Made by a program: the position numbers and the translations under genes. DNA of 45,439 nt from Candidatus Bathyarchaeota archaeon (GTDB taxonomy: Archaea; Thermoproteota; Bathyarchaeia; TCS64): the NCBI GenBank assembly GCA_016783485.1, contig JADHWM010000006.1, forward strand, positions 1 to 45,439. Reading direction: 5' to 3'. A model generated the notes under the pieces. That model was not told where the DNA came from, made no database searches, and saw only the letters and a list, made by a program, of their open reading frames with translations. Shown piece after piece: positions 35,449 to 43,782 of the stretch (positions are counted from its first letter, which is position 1; every line of letters starts with the position of its first letter).

Positions 35449-35676
35449 TTGGAGCCCAACTATCAGTCTTTCACGATCCTCGGCCTCATCCTGATCGTCT
35501 CCGGGCTGCTGCTGGTCCTGCTCCCCTTTCTGGCCCGTTATCTCCCGAGTCTCGACCAGGTGCCATGGTTCCTGATCTGGGTCTACAGGAGGGACGGCTT
35601 CTACTTCGTGACGTCCCCTCTCCTGATCCTTCTCTCCCTGCTATCCCTGATCGCACAATTGTACGGGAGGAGATGA
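35449..35676 (+). CDS. Small two-TM membrane protein (DUF2905-like)
   Basis: LGLILIVSGLLLVLLPFLARYLPS...VPWFLIWVYRRDGFYFVTSPLLILLSLLSLIAQL. Confidence 0.62.
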   Translation: MEPNYQSFTILGLILIVSGLLLVLLPFLARYLPSLDQVPWFLIWVYRRDGFYFVTSPLLILLSLLSLIAQLYGRR

Positions 35677-35681
35677 CGGGG

Positions 35682-36605
35682 CTACTCGATGAGGCTCTCC
35701 ATGCATTGAAGCATCAGTAGCCTGAGCCCCTCGAAACGCGGAGCGATGCCCTCCAGGATATCTAACCTGTCCATCTCCTGGAGCGCGACTCGGCAGGCGT
35801 TGCTATCGGTGAACCGGCCCAATCTCTGGAACGTCTCCTTAAGGGTTTTAATCTCTTCCACGTCAACCGGGCCTCCGATACTCTCGGCGAGATACAGGTC
35901 CCAGAGCAGGAGGTAGGATTTCACGAAGACCTCGTGGAGCTCCAGGTCGAAGCTCTCTATCCCTTCATAATGGGCGAGCCTCTCCGCGTCCCTGTGAGCT
36001 ACGGAGAGGATAGCGTAAGCCTCCTCCTTGATCTCTTCGGCCTTCCTCTCCGTGACGGCAGAGAAGAGGCCCCGGACGTCCATGGTGACGGGGGCTACTA
36101 CTCCGAGGGACTCCATCTCTATCACGACGCTCTCCGCCTCGGCGATGCTACTCGACATAAGCTCCCATCTCGGCTCCCCGTGGAGCGCTGCGAGGATCTG
36201 GAAGATCTGATCCACTATCTCGAGGACCAGGCTTATGTGGTGGACATGGGACTCCCGCTCACTCCTCCTCGCGGCCTCCTCCCGCTCAGCGGCCTCCCTC
36301 CGTTTCTCGATGTCTGCATCGATCTTGGCCTTAATCGCCTCGAGGCCACTCATGTCCTCGGAGAAGAAGAGGGCCTCAAGGCTTTCCTCGCTCTCCTGGT
36401 ACTCGATCTTGATCCGGATCATGCTCCTGAAGGGGGGCTGCTTCTCCTCGATGGAGGTGGATATGGCCTCGGAGAGGGTGATCCCCATGACCTCCTCGAG
36501 CCTCTTGCTGAAGACGCCTTTCTCCTCCTTGATGACGATCCTGTCTTCCTCTATCTCGAGGGTCCCAGTCTTCCCCCTGGCCAATCTTCCCCTGATCCCG
36601 GGCAT
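35682..36605 (-). CDS. Conserved-looking hypothetical: possible PH-like N-terminal domain plus alpha-helical C-terminus (tubulin-locus component)
   Basis: MPGIRGRLARGKTGTLEIEEDRIVIKEEKGVFSKRLEEVMGITLSEAI...IRIKIEYQESEESLEALFFSEDMSGLEAIKAKIDADIEKRR; ATG overlaps stop of the upstream gene (ATGA at 36602-36605). ORF-track extension to 36959 lies in an alternate frame of the upstream gene. Confidence 0.75.
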   Translation of the reverse strand: MPGIRGRLARGKTGTLEIEEDRIVIKEEKGVFSKRLEEVMGITLSEAISTSIEEKQPPFRSMIRIKIEYQESEESLEALFFSEDMSGLEAIKAKIDADIEKRREAAEREEAARRSERESHVHHISLVLEIVDQIFQILAALHGEPRWELMSSSIAEAESVVIEMESLGVVAPVTMDVRGLFSAVTERKAEEIKEEAYAILSVAHRDAERLAHYEGIESFDLELHEVFVKSYLLLWDLYLAESIGGPVDVEEIKTLKETFQRLGRFTDSNACRVALQEMDRLDILEGIAPRFEGLRLLMLQCMESLIE

Positions 36606-38944
36606 CAGGTGAGCCTCCGGAGGGAGTCGCCCACCTCCTCGAGGGGGGTCTCCCTTGAGTGGCTCCTCAGGTAGAGCTTGAGATACTCCCTCCCAAACTT
36701 CTCGGAGACCCCGAGATCCTCGAGGCGGACCTCGTGGTTGTTTGCTAGTATCCTGTCGATCTTCTTCTCGAGGATCGCGTAGTTGAGGAGGAGCTCCCGT
36801 CTCTCGTTGTAGTACTCGATGGTGTCCACGGCCTCGTCGATGTAGCTGAGGATCCTGTAGAGGTGGCTGATGATCTCGCTGATCTCCCTGTTCCCGTAGT
36901 CGTTGATGACCTCTAGGCTGGTGTTCATCCTGTCGATGAGGGTGAGGTTCTTGTTCCACTCATAGTCCTCGAGGGGCATCAGGGAGTCGATGGTCCTCTC
37001 CAGGTCCCTGAGGTGGTCGTAGAGGATCCCGATGACCCGGGCCACGACGTCGACGGTGGCGAGGATGGTGTCCCTGATGAGGATGACCCTGAGCACCTTG
37101 AGGTCGGCCCCGTCCCCGCTAAAGTCCTTCACCTCGAGCTCCCCGGCGAGCTCCTTGATCATGTAGAACCTGTCCCCGAGGATGGGGAGGAGGGTGTACT
37201 CCCGTTTACTCAGCTCTATGATGGTCTCCACCGAGTCCTTGATGGGCTGGGTGGACCTCTCGATCTCCGCGGAGTACTGCTTCTCCCAGTTCTTGAGACT
37301 GGAGACGATGGCGTCGACGATGATCCAGGGGTCCTCCTTGTCGGCCTCCTCCCGGGAGATCTGGAGTATGGGGCTCACCCCGGGGAGGTTGGGCTCGAAG
37401 AGGCTGTGAATGATCTCGTAGATCCTGTCCGAGGTGAGGATCAGCTCCTCGACGAGGGAGCCCCCCGCCTCCACTAGCTCCCCGATGTAGGCTATCTTTT
37501 CCTCGACGGACGCGTCTTCAGGGGGGTCATCAATCACGGGGGCCTTGATCGCGAGGCCGAGCTCCTGGATCTCCTTCGCCGCCTCGAGGTACTCGTACTT
37601 GGTGGAGATGATATGGTCGTCGATGGCGACCCCCAGCTGCAACTTGAAGTTGGTGACGTCGTCGTTCATCTGGGCGAAGACCCTCCTCATGTACCCGTCC
37701 ACATCCTTCAGCTTGGGGTTGGCCGAGAGCTTGGAGAGGATGTCTCTGAGCTCGTCCGCGGCCACGAGCATCCGGGTCCTGAGGGTCATGAAGGAGGTGG
37801 GCCGGGATCCCCGGGTCTCCTCGATGAAGTTCACGTAGCTCTCGATCTCCCCGAGGAGCTCCTCCGCCTTCCTCGATGTCTCCTCCACCCGCCTCTCCAG
37901 GACCTCCCTGATGTCCACGAAGTACCTCGAGAGGCTCACGGGGGTCGAGAGGACCACCGTGAAGACCGTGGAGAGGACAAGTATCGACTGGTCCACGACG
38001 GCTCCGAAGGCGAGGGGTCCCCTAAGGGTCCCCAGGAGGACGAAGAAAGCGACGTTGGTCACGGAGGCGGTTGCGGTGGGTATCGTGTAGATCATCGCCT
38101 CCTCGTATCTCCGGGGGAGCTTGGATTTCTTCAATGGCTCGGGGAGCTTCAATGAGATGAGGGCGGCCACCGAGATGAGGGCCCCGATGATGATAATGAA
38201 CATGAGCATCCCGGGGAGGGAGTTGATGAAGCTCGCCATGGCCGGGTCGATCACCCCCCCGTTCCTGGTCGCCGCGAGGAGCTGCCCCCCGATGACGCTG
38301 AATATCTTGTAGATCTCCGAGAGGCTGACCTGCCTCATCGCCTCCTGGATGTCGACGAAGATAACGTTCAGAGGTGCGTAGAGGGGCGGAGGGACCCCGA
38401 CGCTGAAGGTCTTGAGGTACTGCATCAGTTGCAGCGGGAGGGAGATGGACGCATAGTATGAGATGGTCACGATGATGCCCCTCCTGTTGTAGATGGTCGC
38501 GAAGATCAGGATCAGGGGGACGGCGAAGTAGAATGTCTCGGTGAAGAAGAGGAGGGAGACCGCCAGGATGCCGATGTCCATAGCTATAATCGAGATGTTT
38601 GTGGTGAGCATGGGGGGTAATATGAAGAAGGGTACCACCAGGATGACCATGGCCAGCAGCCTCATCCAGGGGCCGGGGAAGAGCTCGAAGAAACCGATCC
38701 GGGAGAGGTGATAAAAGAGGCCCAGAAGGATGATCATGCTCCCCGTGAAGGCGCCGATGGGAGGGTTACGGTATGTGGCGTAGGCGACGAGAGCCGCAAC
38801 GATGAAGGGCAGGGGGAAGGGGAACAGGGGGATGAGGGTGAATGCGAGGGACATGCTCGCAGCCGTCACGACTAGGGTGATGAATTTCCCCGCGGCCTCC
38901 GAGGCCCGGGGGTCCGTGATCAGCGAGATACCCATGTCCTCCAC
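36605..38944 (-). CDS. Polytopic membrane protein with long C-terminal helical/coiled-coil domain (tubulin-locus component)
   Basis: 779 aa; several strongly hydrophobic segments within the first ~345 residues, then ~430 predominantly helical charged residues. GTG start 38944 or ATG 38935. Confidence 0.85.
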   Translation of the reverse strand: MEDMGISLITDPRASEAAGKFITLVVTAASMSLAFTLIPLFPFPLPFIVAALVAYATYRNPPIGAFTGSMIILLGLFYHLSRIGFFELFPGPWMRLLAMVILVVPFFILPPMLTTNISIIAMDIGILAVSLLFFTETFYFAVPLILIFATIYNRRGIIVTISYYASISLPLQLMQYLKTFSVGVPPPLYAPLNVIFVDIQEAMRQVSLSEIYKIFSVIGGQLLAATRNGGVIDPAMASFINSLPGMLMFIIIIGALISVAALISLKLPEPLKKSKLPRRYEEAMIYTIPTATASVTNVAFFVLLGTLRGPLAFGAVVDQSILVLSTVFTVVLSTPVSLSRYFVDIREVLERRVEETSRKAEELLGEIESYVNFIEETRGSRPTSFMTLRTRMLVAADELRDILSKLSANPKLKDVDGYMRRVFAQMNDDVTNFKLQLGVAIDDHIISTKYEYLEAAKEIQELGLAIKAPVIDDPPEDASVEEKIAYIGELVEAGGSLVEELILTSDRIYEIIHSLFEPNLPGVSPILQISREEADKEDPWIIVDAIVSSLKNWEKQYSAEIERSTQPIKDSVETIIELSKREYTLLPILGDRFYMIKELAGELEVKDFSGDGADLKVLRVILIRDTILATVDVVARVIGILYDHLRDLERTIDSLMPLEDYEWNKNLTLIDRMNTSLEVINDYGNREISEIISHLYRILSYIDEAVDTIEYYNERRELLLNYAILEKKIDRILANNHEVRLEDLGVSEKFGREYLKLYLRSHSRETPLEEVGDSLRRLT

Positions 38945-38983
38945 GACACTTTATATGGATTAGATTATAACTTGTGTCCTCAG

Positions 38984-40129
38984 ATGGCGTCGAGCGATAG
39001 CGGCCCCAACATTATGAGATGGGTGAAGAATCATATCGACGGTATTCTCCCCGTTATACCCAGCCAGATGGCGATATCGGTGGGGCAGTACGCCTATAAA
39101 TCCTTGATGGATTCCAGGAAGTTCTACAGTAAAGACGCTCCCGCCCTCCTCCGGGTCATCCATAGGAAGGAGGCAGAGCTCCTCGGCGCAGCCGGCGGAA
39201 ACGAACCGGAGAAAACGATCCAGTTCGATACCGCGTTCGAGCCCCATTACTGGTTCGACATCCATACCTTCCTCAGGGAGGACTCGATCTTCCTGGAATC
39301 CTTCCAGGGGAATATCTTCGATTATCAGGAGGAGTTCGTGATCCTGGGCTCCCTCGGAGAAGGGGTCACCGCCGGGGCCCTGCCCATTTTGAACGAGCAT
39401 CTGGTTCAGGGACAGAAGGACGCCCTGCTCGTGTCGGTGTTCCCTTCTGTGACCCACAGCTCCGACGCCCTCTTCAACGCCTTCTCATCCCTGGGCCTCC
39501 TCCTCAGCCAGGGCTCCGGGCCCTTGCTTCTCCTGGACCGGGCCCGGCTCGACGACTTCATAAGCGTGAACAGGGAGGGGGACAGGCTCTCCGGGGACCT
39601 CGTGCCGAGATATCTCGTGGAGCTGCTCCTCGATAAAGAGGGCATCGTGAAGGATCTGGTCAAGCTGTCCCGTTCCTTCCGGGTAGAGCTCTTCACGGTC
39701 CTAATGGCGTCGGGTTCGAGCCTCGAGATCTATGAGAGCCTGAGGAACATCCTGGACATCACCTTGGAGCAGCCTCTCCTGGATTTCGATATCTCCACCG
39801 CCTCCATCATTTATGTCCTCGTCAAGGCGCCTCTGAGGCTGCAGGGGAGGCTCACCAAGGGGTTCATAGAGCTCGAGGTGAACCGCTGGCTCAAGGAGAG
39901 GCTCGAGATCGATGTCCCCCAGATCTGTGAGCCCATCTACGTGGACGAGCTCAACGACAGGATCGACGTCGTCATCCTCGTGGGGGGCTTCGACACGGAT
40001 CGCCTTTTCGAGACTGTGAGTGAGAGGGTTTCCCGCTTCGACAACCTGATCAAGGAGCACGGCTTCTACGATAAGGACGTCTGGGCAAAGATCTGTGGGA
40101 CCCTCCTCCCAGGGGTGGAGGAGTCCTAG
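38984..40129 (+). CDS. Divergent FtsZ/CetZ-tubulin superfamily-like protein with degenerate nucleotide-binding signature
   Basis: EEFVILGSLGEGVTAGALPILNEHL sits where FtsZ/CetZ have the GGGTGxG T4 loop; LLVSVFPSVTHSSDALFNAFSSLGLLL...LLLLDRARLDDF resembles the CetZ segment after T4; ASIIYVLVKAPLRLQGRLTKGFIELEVNRWLKE...DRIDVVILVGGF resembles the FtsZ/CetZ C-terminal domain. Confidence 0.6.
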   Translation: MASSDSGPNIMRWVKNHIDGILPVIPSQMAISVGQYAYKSLMDSRKFYSKDAPALLRVIHRKEAELLGAAGGNEPEKTIQFDTAFEPHYWFDIHTFLREDSIFLESFQGNIFDYQEEFVILGSLGEGVTAGALPILNEHLVQGQKDALLVSVFPSVTHSSDALFNAFSSLGLLLSQGSGPLLLLDRARLDDFISVNREGDRLSGDLVPRYLVELLLDKEGIVKDLVKLSRSFRVELFTVLMASGSSLEIYESLRNILDITLEQPLLDFDISTASIIYVLVKAPLRLQGRLTKGFIELEVNRWLKERLEIDVPQICEPIYVDELNDRIDVVILVGGFDTDRLFETVSERVSRFDNLIKEHGFYDKDVWAKICGTLLPGVEES

Positions 40130-42780
40130 CGCAGCTTCTTGAGGAGTTCCTCGAGGGACGGGTTGTGCTCCACGAGGAAGCTCCTGGAGAGGCTCGCCTC
40201 GAAATCCGAAGCCCTCCTGTTGATCCTCTCCATCTCGTCGTACGACGCCAGATCCTCAACCTTTCCTCGTGCCCCCACCACGACGATCCGTATCACCCAG
40301 GGATCCCTTGCCGCGACCTCCCTCACGGTTATGGTCTTGGAGACGTCCCCGGTGACATAGCCCGCCAGGGCCGTGTTTAGCTCCTGGGTGAGGTCGGAGT
40401 CCCAGAGGCCGGGGGGAGACTGGACTGTGACCCATAGGTAGTCGGATCGGAAGCTGGACTTCAGCCCCATGATGTTGGGGGTCCTGTAGACCCTGACCAC
40501 GCTCCGCATGTAATCCTTGAAGTGCTCTACGTCCAGGATCTCGGTGAGGATCCCCTCCCTGCTCAGGGCGTCCTCCTGCTCGGTGACGATCTTGTGGATG
40601 ATCTTCACCTGCTCCTCCTGGGTGAGCTCCGTGGTCCTCTCGTAGAACTTCTTGGACTTGATTATCTCGGAGAAGAGGGCCTGGTACTCCTTCGCGAGGT
40701 CTAGGATGGCGGTGAGCTTCTTCCTGTAGTCGGATGTGACCTCCAGTTTCTTCAGGAGGTCCTCGTAGAGCTCGATCACCTTCTCCACGCTGTCCATGTC
40801 GTCGGTGAGGTTGAGGGTCTCCTCGTCGCTGACCCGGAGCTCCCGCTCGATCTCCTTGAGCCTGTCCCGGGCGTAGCGCTTCTTCCCGAACCGTAGGAAT
40901 CCCCCCGACTCCTTCTCGTACTTGTCCTTATCGAACTCCTTCCTCTTTTTCCGCTCCTCGAGGCGGAAGATCTCGTTCTCGACCCCCTCCCTCCTGCCCC
41001 TGAACTTGCCGATGAGGGCCTGGAGGTAGGTGAGGTGCTCGTCGATCATCTTCACCTCGTCCTGGGGGGTCCTCACCATGAGCTGGAGGAGGTGGTAGAG
41101 GGTGGTGAGCTCCGACTTTATCTCCTGGAAGTTGATGGGCTGCAGCTCATCTTGGGGAAGGATATCGTAGCGCCTGATCATGGCGTCGGTGAGGTGCCGG
41201 GTCTCGTTGTAGAACCTGAGGATCTCCAGGGTCTTGTCCGTGAGCTCGGCGATGTTCATAAAGTCCTCGAGGAGCCTCTTCTGCTGCACACTGAGAACCT
41301 GGGAGCTGGGGACCAGCTGCTGGAGCCTCTCGAAGATGGCGCCCTTGAGCACCCCGAAGTCCGTGTGGGTCCTCATGAGGTTCTTCATGAGCCCCTCGAG
41401 GTTGTCCTGGTACTGGCCGTCCTCCCCCTGGAGCACAAGGTTCACGATGGAGTCCTCGATGGTCCCGTCCTCGGCCATCACCTTGATCGTGGTGATGAAC
41501 TGGAGGGCCTCATCGATCCAGTCCCTGATCTGCCCCTGGACCCCCCTGATGTAGAGGTTGTAGTCCTCGTCGAAGCGGGGGCTCCCGTGGACCAGCTGCC
41601 GGAGCTTCTCGTCGAACTCGTCCTCGCTGAAGGCGTTGGTCCTGATGAGGTACTGCTTGTAGAGCTGGGAGACCTCCCGGTGCTTCACACCGAGGACGGC
41701 GTTGATCATCTCGAGGACCTCAAGCTTCTCGAGCCTGATCGTCTGGAGCTGCTGCATCATCTCCAGCTTCGACTTGAACGCGTTGACGTAGGCGTCCACG
41801 GGGTAGTTGACCTTAACCATGCTCAGGGTGTGGATGTTGTTCTCCCCGAGGCCGACCTCGGTCCCGATGCCGCTGAGCACGTCCGCCATGTCAAAGTCCA
41901 TGAGGACGTAGATCATCTCGGTGACCATCTCGTCCACCTCGTCCCTGGCCAAGATAATATTCCCCGTCTTGGAGTACGCCGGCATCAACGGGAGGAAGAG
42001 CATCGCGTTGAAGGGGTTCCTGTAGACCTCACCGAGCCCCTTCACGATGGCCTCGTTGGTCTCCCGGTTCAGCACCGAAGAGAACTCCATGACCGCGTTG
42101 TACCCCGAGTAGCCCTTAGCCGGGGGGTCGTCGCCCGCGCAGGGGAGGATGCCCATCCCGATGATGGGGACCCCGGAGCCCACCGATGCCCGGAGGTGGC
42201 GGGCGAAGTCGAGGATGATGCCGCTGCCGGTGCCCCCGCCGAGGCCGAAGATGATGAGTATGATGGGGCTGGTGATGGAGGAGAGGGCGTGATCCTTGAA
42301 CATGTTAATGAGGGACTTTATGATGCCCAGCTGGTAGTAGTTGAGGGTATAGATCGCCTTCGCCAGGGACCTCCGCCTCCCGGCGCCTCCCGCAAGGGGA
42401 GGGATCGCCACCGTGGAGGGGAGCCAGGGGTTGTACTTCTTGACCTTGATCCCGTCGTTGGTGAGGTGCTCCTTGAACTTGTGCTGGACGAAGTCGAACA
42501 TCGCCTCGGCGCTGGGAAACTTTATGGACTGGGCTATGAGGCTGAGGCGTTCCTGGGGGACCCCGTTCCGCTTCATCACCTCGGTGACAATCTTGTGGGT
42601 CTCCTCGAGGCTCTTGATGTCCGGGTCGGCGATGTCGAGAGCCATCAACGAGAGCCGCGAGACTCCCGTCTCGAGGAGGTCCATGGTCTTCTCGTTCCTC
42701 AGGAATGACTCGACGATGTTCGTCCCCGCCCCTCCTAGCCCAACGATGTGAATAGTGCTCGAGTATCCGCTCTCCGCCAT
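40126..42780 (-). CDS. Tubulin/FtsZ-superfamily GTPase with large predicted coiled-coil insertion
   Basis: T1-like IHIVGLGGAGTNIVESF (res 10-26), T3-like SLMALDIADPDIKSL, tubulin signature IILIIFGLGGGTGSGIILDFARHL (GGGTGSG res 181-187, nt 42220-42240), T7-like MDFDMADV (DxDxxD, res 295-300), ~440 aa predicted helical region (res ~330-770) and C-terminal beta domain WVTVQSPPGLWDSDLTQELNTALAGYV...DPWVIRIVVVGARG. Confidence 0.9.
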   Translation of the reverse strand: MAESGYSSTIHIVGLGGAGTNIVESFLRNEKTMDLLETGVSRLSLMALDIADPDIKSLEETHKIVTEVMKRNGVPQERLSLIAQSIKFPSAEAMFDFVQHKFKEHLTNDGIKVKKYNPWLPSTVAIPPLAGGAGRRRSLAKAIYTLNYYQLGIIKSLINMFKDHALSSITSPIILIIFGLGGGTGSGIILDFARHLRASVGSGVPIIGMGILPCAGDDPPAKGYSGYNAVMEFSSVLNRETNEAIVKGLGEVYRNPFNAMLFLPLMPAYSKTGNIILARDEVDEMVTEMIYVLMDFDMADVLSGIGTEVGLGENNIHTLSMVKVNYPVDAYVNAFKSKLEMMQQLQTIRLEKLEVLEMINAVLGVKHREVSQLYKQYLIRTNAFSEDEFDEKLRQLVHGSPRFDEDYNLYIRGVQGQIRDWIDEALQFITTIKVMAEDGTIEDSIVNLVLQGEDGQYQDNLEGLMKNLMRTHTDFGVLKGAIFERLQQLVPSSQVLSVQQKRLLEDFMNIAELTDKTLEILRFYNETRHLTDAMIRRYDILPQDELQPINFQEIKSELTTLYHLLQLMVRTPQDEVKMIDEHLTYLQALIGKFRGRREGVENEIFRLEERKKRKEFDKDKYEKESGGFLRFGKKRYARDRLKEIERELRVSDEETLNLTDDMDSVEKVIELYEDLLKKLEVTSDYRKKLTAILDLAKEYQALFSEIIKSKKFYERTTELTQEEQVKIIHKIVTEQEDALSREGILTEILDVEHFKDYMRSVVRVYRTPNIMGLKSSFRSDYLWVTVQSPPGLWDSDLTQELNTALAGYVTGDVSKTITVREVAARDPWVIRIVVVGARGKVEDLASYDEMERINRRASDFEASLSRSFLVEHNPSLEELLKKLR

Positions 42781-43782
42781 CTAGTTCTCCTCCATCTCCT
42801 TCAACTTGTCATTTATCTCCTGGAGCTTCTGGCCCAGGTTCCTGTCCGTCCTCGAGGCCCTCAATGTGAGCCCCTCGAGCTCCCTGATCTGGTCCTCCAC
42901 GATCATCCTGGTGAACGAGAGCCTCCCATTGGCCCTGAAGAACAGGGCGCCCAAGATGACAGCCAGCGCCCCGAGCCCCCCGACGGCCGGGAGGAAATAC
43001 TTCTCCTGGAACGTGGCCTCGGTCCTGATCGGTGGGATATCGATGTCGATGGACTCGAGGATGCTCTGGGCGGTCCCCACGAAGCCGGCCTCCGCCTGGA
43101 CCTCGGCGAGGGCGATGAGACTCTCGAAGAGCCCTGTGAACGCGGGGTCGACCTGGGTCACCAGGTAGCCCTCCAGATCCGCCTGCCGCTGGCCCAGGTA
43201 GTACCTGTAGCCGTCGATCTCCGAGTCGATGACCGTGAGGGCGATCTCGTCGAGGAGGCTCCCGTCAGGCCCCGTGAGCTGGATGAACCTGTGGCTCACC
43301 GGCTTGTGCAGACTCTCCCCGTGGCCCAGGTCCGTCACGGTCCGGTCGCTGGGTATCCTCCCGAAGGTGGAGACGCTGTATCTCCCCTCGATCTGCCTGA
43401 ACTTGAACTCCGCCTCGTTGGGGTTGTAGTCCTCGGTGAGGTTGAGCTCAGTGGTGTGGATCTCCCAGTAGCGGTCGATGTTGCTCGCGTGGTTCAAGTT
43501 CACCGAGAGGGTGAGGTTCGCGTAGGCCGCCGTCAGGTCCACGTCGAGGAAAATGGTTATGTTGTACTCGCCGCCGGCTAGGAGGGGGGTGTTCTGGATG
43601 TCTTTGTCCAGCTCGAAGTCGCGCTCCAGGACCAGCTGCTTGGATGAGAGATCCACGACCTTGTACGCCACGATCCATCTCCCATCCACTCCCGACGCCT
43701 CAAATGCGAGGAGAGGAGAAATGATTAAAATGAATAATAATGCCGTTAATCTGGTTCTGCGCAAATCTGTGTGTACCCCCAA
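42781..43782 (-). CDS. Predicted signal-peptide, extracytoplasmic domain, single-TM, cytoplasmic coiled-coil membrane protein (tubulin-locus component)
   Basis: N-term RLTALLFILIISPLLAFEASG; beta-rich body; TM YFLPAVGGLGALAVILGALFF; C-term coiled coil ...LTLRASRTDRNLGQKLQEINDKLKEMEEN. Its TAG directly abuts the ATG of the tubulin-like gene. Confidence 0.82.
   Translation of the reverse strand: MGVHTDLRRTRLTALLFILIISPLLAFEASGVDGRWIVAYKVVDLSSKQLVLERDFELDKDIQNTPLLAGGEYNITIFLDVDLTAAYANLTLSVNLNHASNIDRYWEIHTTELNLTEDYNPNEAEFKFRQIEGRYSVSTFGRIPSDRTVTDLGHGESLHKPVSHRFIQLTGPDGSLLDEIALTVIDSEIDGYRYYLGQRQADLEGYLVTQVDPAFTGLFESLIALAEVQAEAGFVGTAQSILESIDIDIPPIRTEATFQEKYFLPAVGGLGALAVILGALFFRANGRLSFTRMIVEDQIRELEGLTLRASRTDRNLGQKLQEINDKLKEMEEN

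Follow-up and report, generated by a model that had tools for sequence, protein, structure and literature searches.

We identified a compact locus of four conserved genes and an optional fifth, centred on a tubulin-like GTPase, in an archaeal genome that is 70% complete (G000). We consider it about an even bet (probability roughly 0.5) that this locus specifies a tubulin-superfamily cytoskeletal machine, tethered to the membrane, which does not act in cell division and most likely organises or remodels the cell envelope. The superfamily of the GTPase, FtsZl1, is already known; what appears from the sequences to be new is its set of partners, namely a dead paralogue and two membrane proteins without a known family. 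The locus offers a compact four-gene FtsZl1/Tubulin_2 system suited to expression and testing. Positions are those of the window, meaning the whole 45,439-nucleotide stretch of DNA that was analysed.

Organisation of the locus

All five open reading frames, here named P1 to P5 (Table 1), are present at 35682-43782 where the first-pass annotation had placed them, as borne out by gene calls, frame length and substitution rates. The 884-aa frame of P2 far exceeds the stop-free runs found in Markov-simulated DNA of the same composition (mean 233 codons, maximum 427), and in comparison with the nearest relative (L018) each gene has a dN/dS of 0.10-0.30. All five are under purifying selection.

The genes are tightly packed. 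P1 and P2 abut at 42781/42780, the stops of P2 and P3 have a CTAG in common at 40126-40129, and P3 and P4 diverge from a 39-nt spacer, all as previously described; the P4/P5 junction, which had been read as an ATGA at 36602-36605, is in fact a TGATG at 36607-36603 with one base in common. P5 starts at the ATG at 36605 and P3 at the ATG at 38984, and the TTG at 43782 assigned to P1 is the least certain of the starts.

Table 1. Coordinates of the genes and sequence features of the locus.
Feature	Position	Strand	Description
P1	42781..43782	-	333 aa, membrane protein
P2	40126..42780	-	884 aa, Tubulin_2/FtsZl1-type GTPase; aligned with 22 relatives
P3	38984..40129	+	381 aa, pseudo-tubulin, convergent to P2; 19 relatives
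P4	36605..38944	-	779 aa, polytopic membrane protein
P5	35682..36605	-	307 aa, soluble protein, facultative partner
Divergent P3/P4 spacer	38945..38983	+	39 nt; TATA-like TTTATATG centred 30 nt 5' of the P3 ATG
P2 T1 loop VGLGGAGTN	42718..42744	-	aa 13-21; GLG start and second glycine in 19/19 covering rows
P2 T4 signature loop GLGGGTGSG	42220..42246	-	aa 179-187; GGG-G-S-G invariant, 22/22 rows
P2 T7-like motif DFDMAD	41881..41898	-	aa 295-300; D297 and D300 invariant, 22/22 rows
P2 helical insertion	40561..41793	-	about aa 330-740
P3 degenerate T4 equivalent GSLGEGVTAG	39347..39376	+	GGGTG[ST]G missing, 19/19 rows

The spacer between P3 and P4 is short in most relatives (22-63 nt), and the TATA-like element within it would presumably serve as a promoter. 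An ACCTAAA(A/G)CCTTAT-like motif is common to the P3/P4 spacers of L068, L069, L070, L071, L073, L075, L077 and L081, and is possibly a bidirectional promoter element. We additionally noted an open frame of 557 aa antisense to P2 (41035-42708), which is most likely a side effect of coding sequence rich in G+C, and a 75-aa protein with two TM segments (35449-35676) that adjoins adk and is retained even in the absence of the module (L128).

Conservation, co-occurrence and loss

The distribution of the genes was surveyed across 199 genomes of the class (a single fixed set, mostly MAGs), with the sampling overall lying within the phylum of the window. P2 was found in 32 of these genomes, P1 in 31 and P4 in 31, the set being spread over 12 genera. 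All 31 genomes with P1 also carry P2; of the 31 with P4, 30 do and one does not. The corresponding Fisher p-values (2e-35 for P2 with P1, 4e-32 for P2 with P4; 199 genomes) overstate independence, since the genomes are related.

Gene order is also conserved. In two families of the class we identified P1-P2, a convergent P3, a divergent P4 and then P5 where present, with tight spacing throughout, so that the conservation of gene neighbourhood proposed in the first-pass annotation as a check on the locus is evident both in co-occurrence and in order. Distant genomes in the phylum have the arrangement P1-P2-P4-P3 together with a P5 candidate (L027, L067 and L079), assigned by position only, its resemblance to P5 being weak (E 1e-3 to 0.2). 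P1-P2-P4-P3 was likewise found in L080, and the window's own gene order in L082.

We additionally identified losses of the module. At the proS-adk site, where the window has the module, G006 has none. The same site in G002, a sister genome from the window's genus, carries a scar (L127:4294-4848, between proS and an intact P5) in which P1 is represented by its start and P4 by several stretches, still in order, one of them with a stop. P5 is also present without P1-P4 in a second sister genome, G003. The remnants beside an intact P5 show that the module was inherited and subsequently lost within the window's genus, with P5 outliving it, and a patchy module that can be lost within a genus is not essential. 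Conversely, P5 was not detected beside P4 in several full loci. Thus, the core of the system is P1-P4, and the five-gene unit initially proposed does not hold: P1-P4 are a conserved four-gene unit with an optional fifth gene, and more than neighbours.

The tubulin-like GTPase P2

P2 matches Pfam Tubulin_2 (PF13809) at 54.8 bits against a cut-off of 27 (E 1.2e-14), and by this profile is a member of the Tubulin_2/FtsZl1 superfamily. It is not a canonical FtsZ, scoring 18.6 bits with TIGR00065 against a cut-off of 295.2. In a tree limited by long branches it falls within Tubulin_2 and separate from the crenarchaeal TM-fused FtsZl1 proteins, and unlike the latter (L064 and L065) it has no N-terminal transmembrane helices.

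The catalytic T7 motif of FtsZ is NxDxxD. At the equivalent site in P2, the end of predicted H7, the invariant D297 and D300 lie inside an 'FD-x-AD' block, which from its position, motif and order is a candidate T7. We retain the word candidate because Makarova & Koonin (PMC2875224) found no identifiable T6-H7 in FtsZl1; P2 with its invariant D-x-x-D differs in this respect from FtsZl1 as described there. The motif bears on whether a catalytic T7 loop, which filament turnover requires, is kept in FtsZl1 proteins.

The earlier reading of P2 as a tubulin-like GTPase carrying a long helical insertion is upheld by the Pfam match, by a heptad pattern at aa 557-685 and by the AF2 model, whose only confident part (aa 592-666) is helical. 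Mean pLDDT was 37 for P2 and 42 for P3, from alignments of three rows (window, L018 and L019). FtsZl1 proteins are described as having an extended coiled coil and then a largely helical C-terminus. In P2, strand-like conserved blocks can be seen by eye in aa 740-884; this region has no profile match, and no C-terminal tubulin domain was detected by profile comparison.

A lone P2-like protein with a C-terminal zinc-ribbon-like extension was found in G035, adjoining a Cdc6/AAA-like gene (L028:8408-11290), suggesting that P2 may work without partners. In G376, on a single-contig stretch, the P2 frame is split into two ORFs of 417 and 454 aa (L067:8514-11170), which may reflect a frameshift, a pseudogene or a true split; this genome bears a second Tubulin_2 protein (L108).

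P3, a motif-dead tubulin relative

The assignment of P3 uses a profile of the 19 P3 rows only, a first iterated profile having also drawn in P2. All 25 PDB matches to it at E<=1 belong to the tubulin/FtsZ superfamily, the best being Asgard AtubB2 (3.6e-6) and CetZ (7.6e-5), in keeping with the original description of a degenerate FtsZ/CetZ-like protein. PF00091 gave a weak match in nine of the 19 members (best 3.8e-4), comparison with the FtsZ profile gave E 4e-4, and P1, P4 and P5 had no match to FtsZ in the same kind of comparison. The equivalents in distant genomes align with P3 over 234 columns (2e-14). Foldseek with the AF2 model of P3 returned noise only.

Both GGGTG[ST]G and the T7 acids are missing in 19/19 P3 rows, as is the T1 glycine pattern in the rows that cover it. 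Judged by these motifs and matches, P3 is a tubulin-superfamily protein devoid of nucleotide-binding and T7 motifs, or a 'dead tubulin'. The distant P3 proteins at L027:7949-8989 and L067:13383-14393 start with a Cys4 zinc-ribbon-like motif.

Membrane and accessory proteins

Hydropathy averaged over relatives agrees with the topologies first suggested for the membrane proteins. P1 has a signal or TM segment at aa 12-24 and a single TM segment at aa 264-279, separated by a conserved, acidic extracytoplasmic domain and followed by a positively charged cytoplasmic tail with a heptad pattern (aa 286-333). P4 has several TM segments at about aa 25-335 and then a helical domain of approximately 440 aa (aa 340-779).

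None of P1, P4 and P5 gave a significant, consistent family match in Pfam, NCBIfam or PDB. A PH-like fold had been suggested for the N-terminus of P5, for which neither Pfam nor PDB yielded a match. P4 has weak coiled-coil-like PDB matches, including a chemoreceptor and GldL, that are not significant (E 0.19-0.2).

Proposed mechanism

Characterised relatives of FtsZ and tubulin form filaments, a point also argued by Makarova & Koonin, who in 2010 predicted FtsZl1 to be a membrane-remodelling system with lineage-specific membrane partners (PMC2875224). GTP binding and polymerisation by P2, physical contacts between the proteins and a role at the envelope are all inferred here from knowledge of the family.

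By its motifs, P2 carries the two halves of a tubulin-type active site, which could allow it to form homopolymers driven by GTP; it would bind GTP and build filaments in which the T7-like acids of one subunit complete the active site of its neighbour, while the helical insertion may stick out as an arm for contacts. P3 lacks both halves. At a filament end it would therefore supply no hydrolysis trigger and might act as a cap or seed, or else as a hydrolysis-dead co-subunit, setting filament length or stability. Whether a tubulin unable to use GTP caps or regulates one that does use it is a question that P3 raises.

P1 would cross the membrane once, with its cytoplasmic heptad tail as an anchor and its extracytoplasmic domain as a sensor or surface contact. 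P4 would keep the complex in the membrane and offer its large helical domain to the filament, and P5 may be an optional adaptor. The assembly as a whole would organise or remodel the envelope, as proposed for FtsZl1 generally (PMC2875224).

Comparison with known systems and alternative explanations

The nearest described systems are those of FtsZl1/Tubulin_2. As in the part of PMC2875224 considered here, P2 combines an N-terminal tubulin-like domain with a following region that is predicted to be coiled-coil or helical, the locus has operonic membrane partners, and it occurs beside canonical FtsZ. However, the defining FtsZl1 partners named there are a VWA protein, a P-loop GTPase, an OmpA-like protein and a protein kinase, and no such partner is found at this locus, which instead adds a tubulin paralogue with dead motifs and two membrane families that Pfam does not contain. 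We found no VWA domain in P1-P5 by Pfam, and none of VWA, kinase, GTPase or OmpA was a conserved neighbour among the flanking genes, which were Pfam-scanned in part; the absence of VWA and OmpA partners noted in the first-pass annotation thus stands. Apart from scattered neighbours, none of which read as VWA, the locus showed no other conserved gene family.

It is possible but doubtful that the locus is simply the archaeal branch of the complex predicted by Makarova & Koonin, differing in its lineage-specific partners only. P2 scores above the Tubulin_2 cut-off and branches within that family, and both remodelling and lineage-specific membrane partners were already predicted in PMC2875224. However, the defining partners are not conserved here, whereas an Agrobacterium Tubulin_2 locus has VWA; the crenarchaeal TM-fused type (SSO1376 type; L064 and L065), which shares the Tubulin_2 domain, the phylum and a tie to the membrane, has its TM helices fused at the N-terminus and branches separately, with neighbours other than P1, P3, P4 and P5; and the part of PMC2875224 considered makes no mention of a dead tubulin paralogue. 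A later review treats Tubulin_2 as divergent and sets it aside (PMC9871819). The literature that we searched held no description of the gene set, and no experimental study of any FtsZl1/Tubulin_2 protein, a family known since 2010. The archaeal partner families A1-A2 in the supplement of the 2010 paper may overlap with P1, P3 or P4. The earlier suggestion of a distinct system is retained for the conserved unit and its membrane proteins without known family, and set aside for P2 itself, which falls in the known superfamily.

Among solved structures, CetZ (PDB 3zid, 4b45 and 4b46) and the Asgard tubulins (9f6v) come nearest in sequence to P3 and P2. Their PDB chains are about 350-430 aa long, whereas P2 contains a large insertion and P3 no longer has the nucleotide motifs. 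FtsZ with its SepF anchor (PMC8178401) is another tubulin-fold polymer tethered to the archaeal membrane, and is an analogy of layout only: P2 lies far under the ftsZ cut-off, and no SepF-like partner was recognised at the locus.

A transmembrane machine for transport, secretion or signalling, with P4 as channel or transducer, P1 as a receptor on the outside and the two tubulins as a switch instead of a filament, is in our view unlikely. Such a machine would fit the presence of two membrane proteins, of which P1 has a conserved extracytoplasmic domain, and the non-significant matches of P4 noted above, and a reviewer of PMC2875224 suggested transport or signalling for FtsZl1. Yet the locus has no conserved gene for an ATPase, for substrate binding or for secretion, and P2 retains a T7-like motif, which suits subunit-to-subunit activation.

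In contrast to the envelope role that we favour, a module for cell division, standing in for FtsZ or assisting it, is highly improbable. Among the 32 genomes with P2, 17 encode Snf7 (CdvB-like) proteins without a canonical FtsZ and three encode neither, which speaks for such a module; however, six have FtsZ only and six have both, and the genome of the window encodes two canonical FtsZ proteins in addition to P2. The module does not track the division machinery and, as it occurs with FtsZ or CdvB alike, is not a divisome. Moreover, close relatives have lost the module and persist, suggesting that division proceeds normally without it. If independent of both FtsZ and CdvB, the module would represent a separate layer of archaeal cell organisation.

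There is similarly very little to recommend a mobile or defence-related cassette, which would account for the patchy distribution, as viral contigs scanned with P2 and P4 and plasmids searched with P4 yielded no relatives, PADLOC gave no convincing match (best E 0.012, for P5), the conserved neighbours include no mobility gene, and the absence in the window's genus is a deletion with remnants and not an empty insertion site.

For the envelope-organising machine itself, we put forward tentatively, as something short of an even chance, a more specific form: a division-independent system in which an active tubulin-like polymer is joined by an obligate hydrolysis-dead paralogue and by two membrane proteins, both from new families, and which would be ancestral in several Thermoproteota classes and so far undescribed as a system.

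Tubulin_2 loci on bacterial plasmids resemble the present locus in having two tubulin-like genes close by, and differ from it in their neighbours, which include a CbbQ-type ATPase and VWA in Agrobacterium (L107) and other genes in Rhodococcus (L104). In both plasmids, a small gene lies between the two tubulin-like genes (L107:5854-9513 and L104:6082-9662, respectively).
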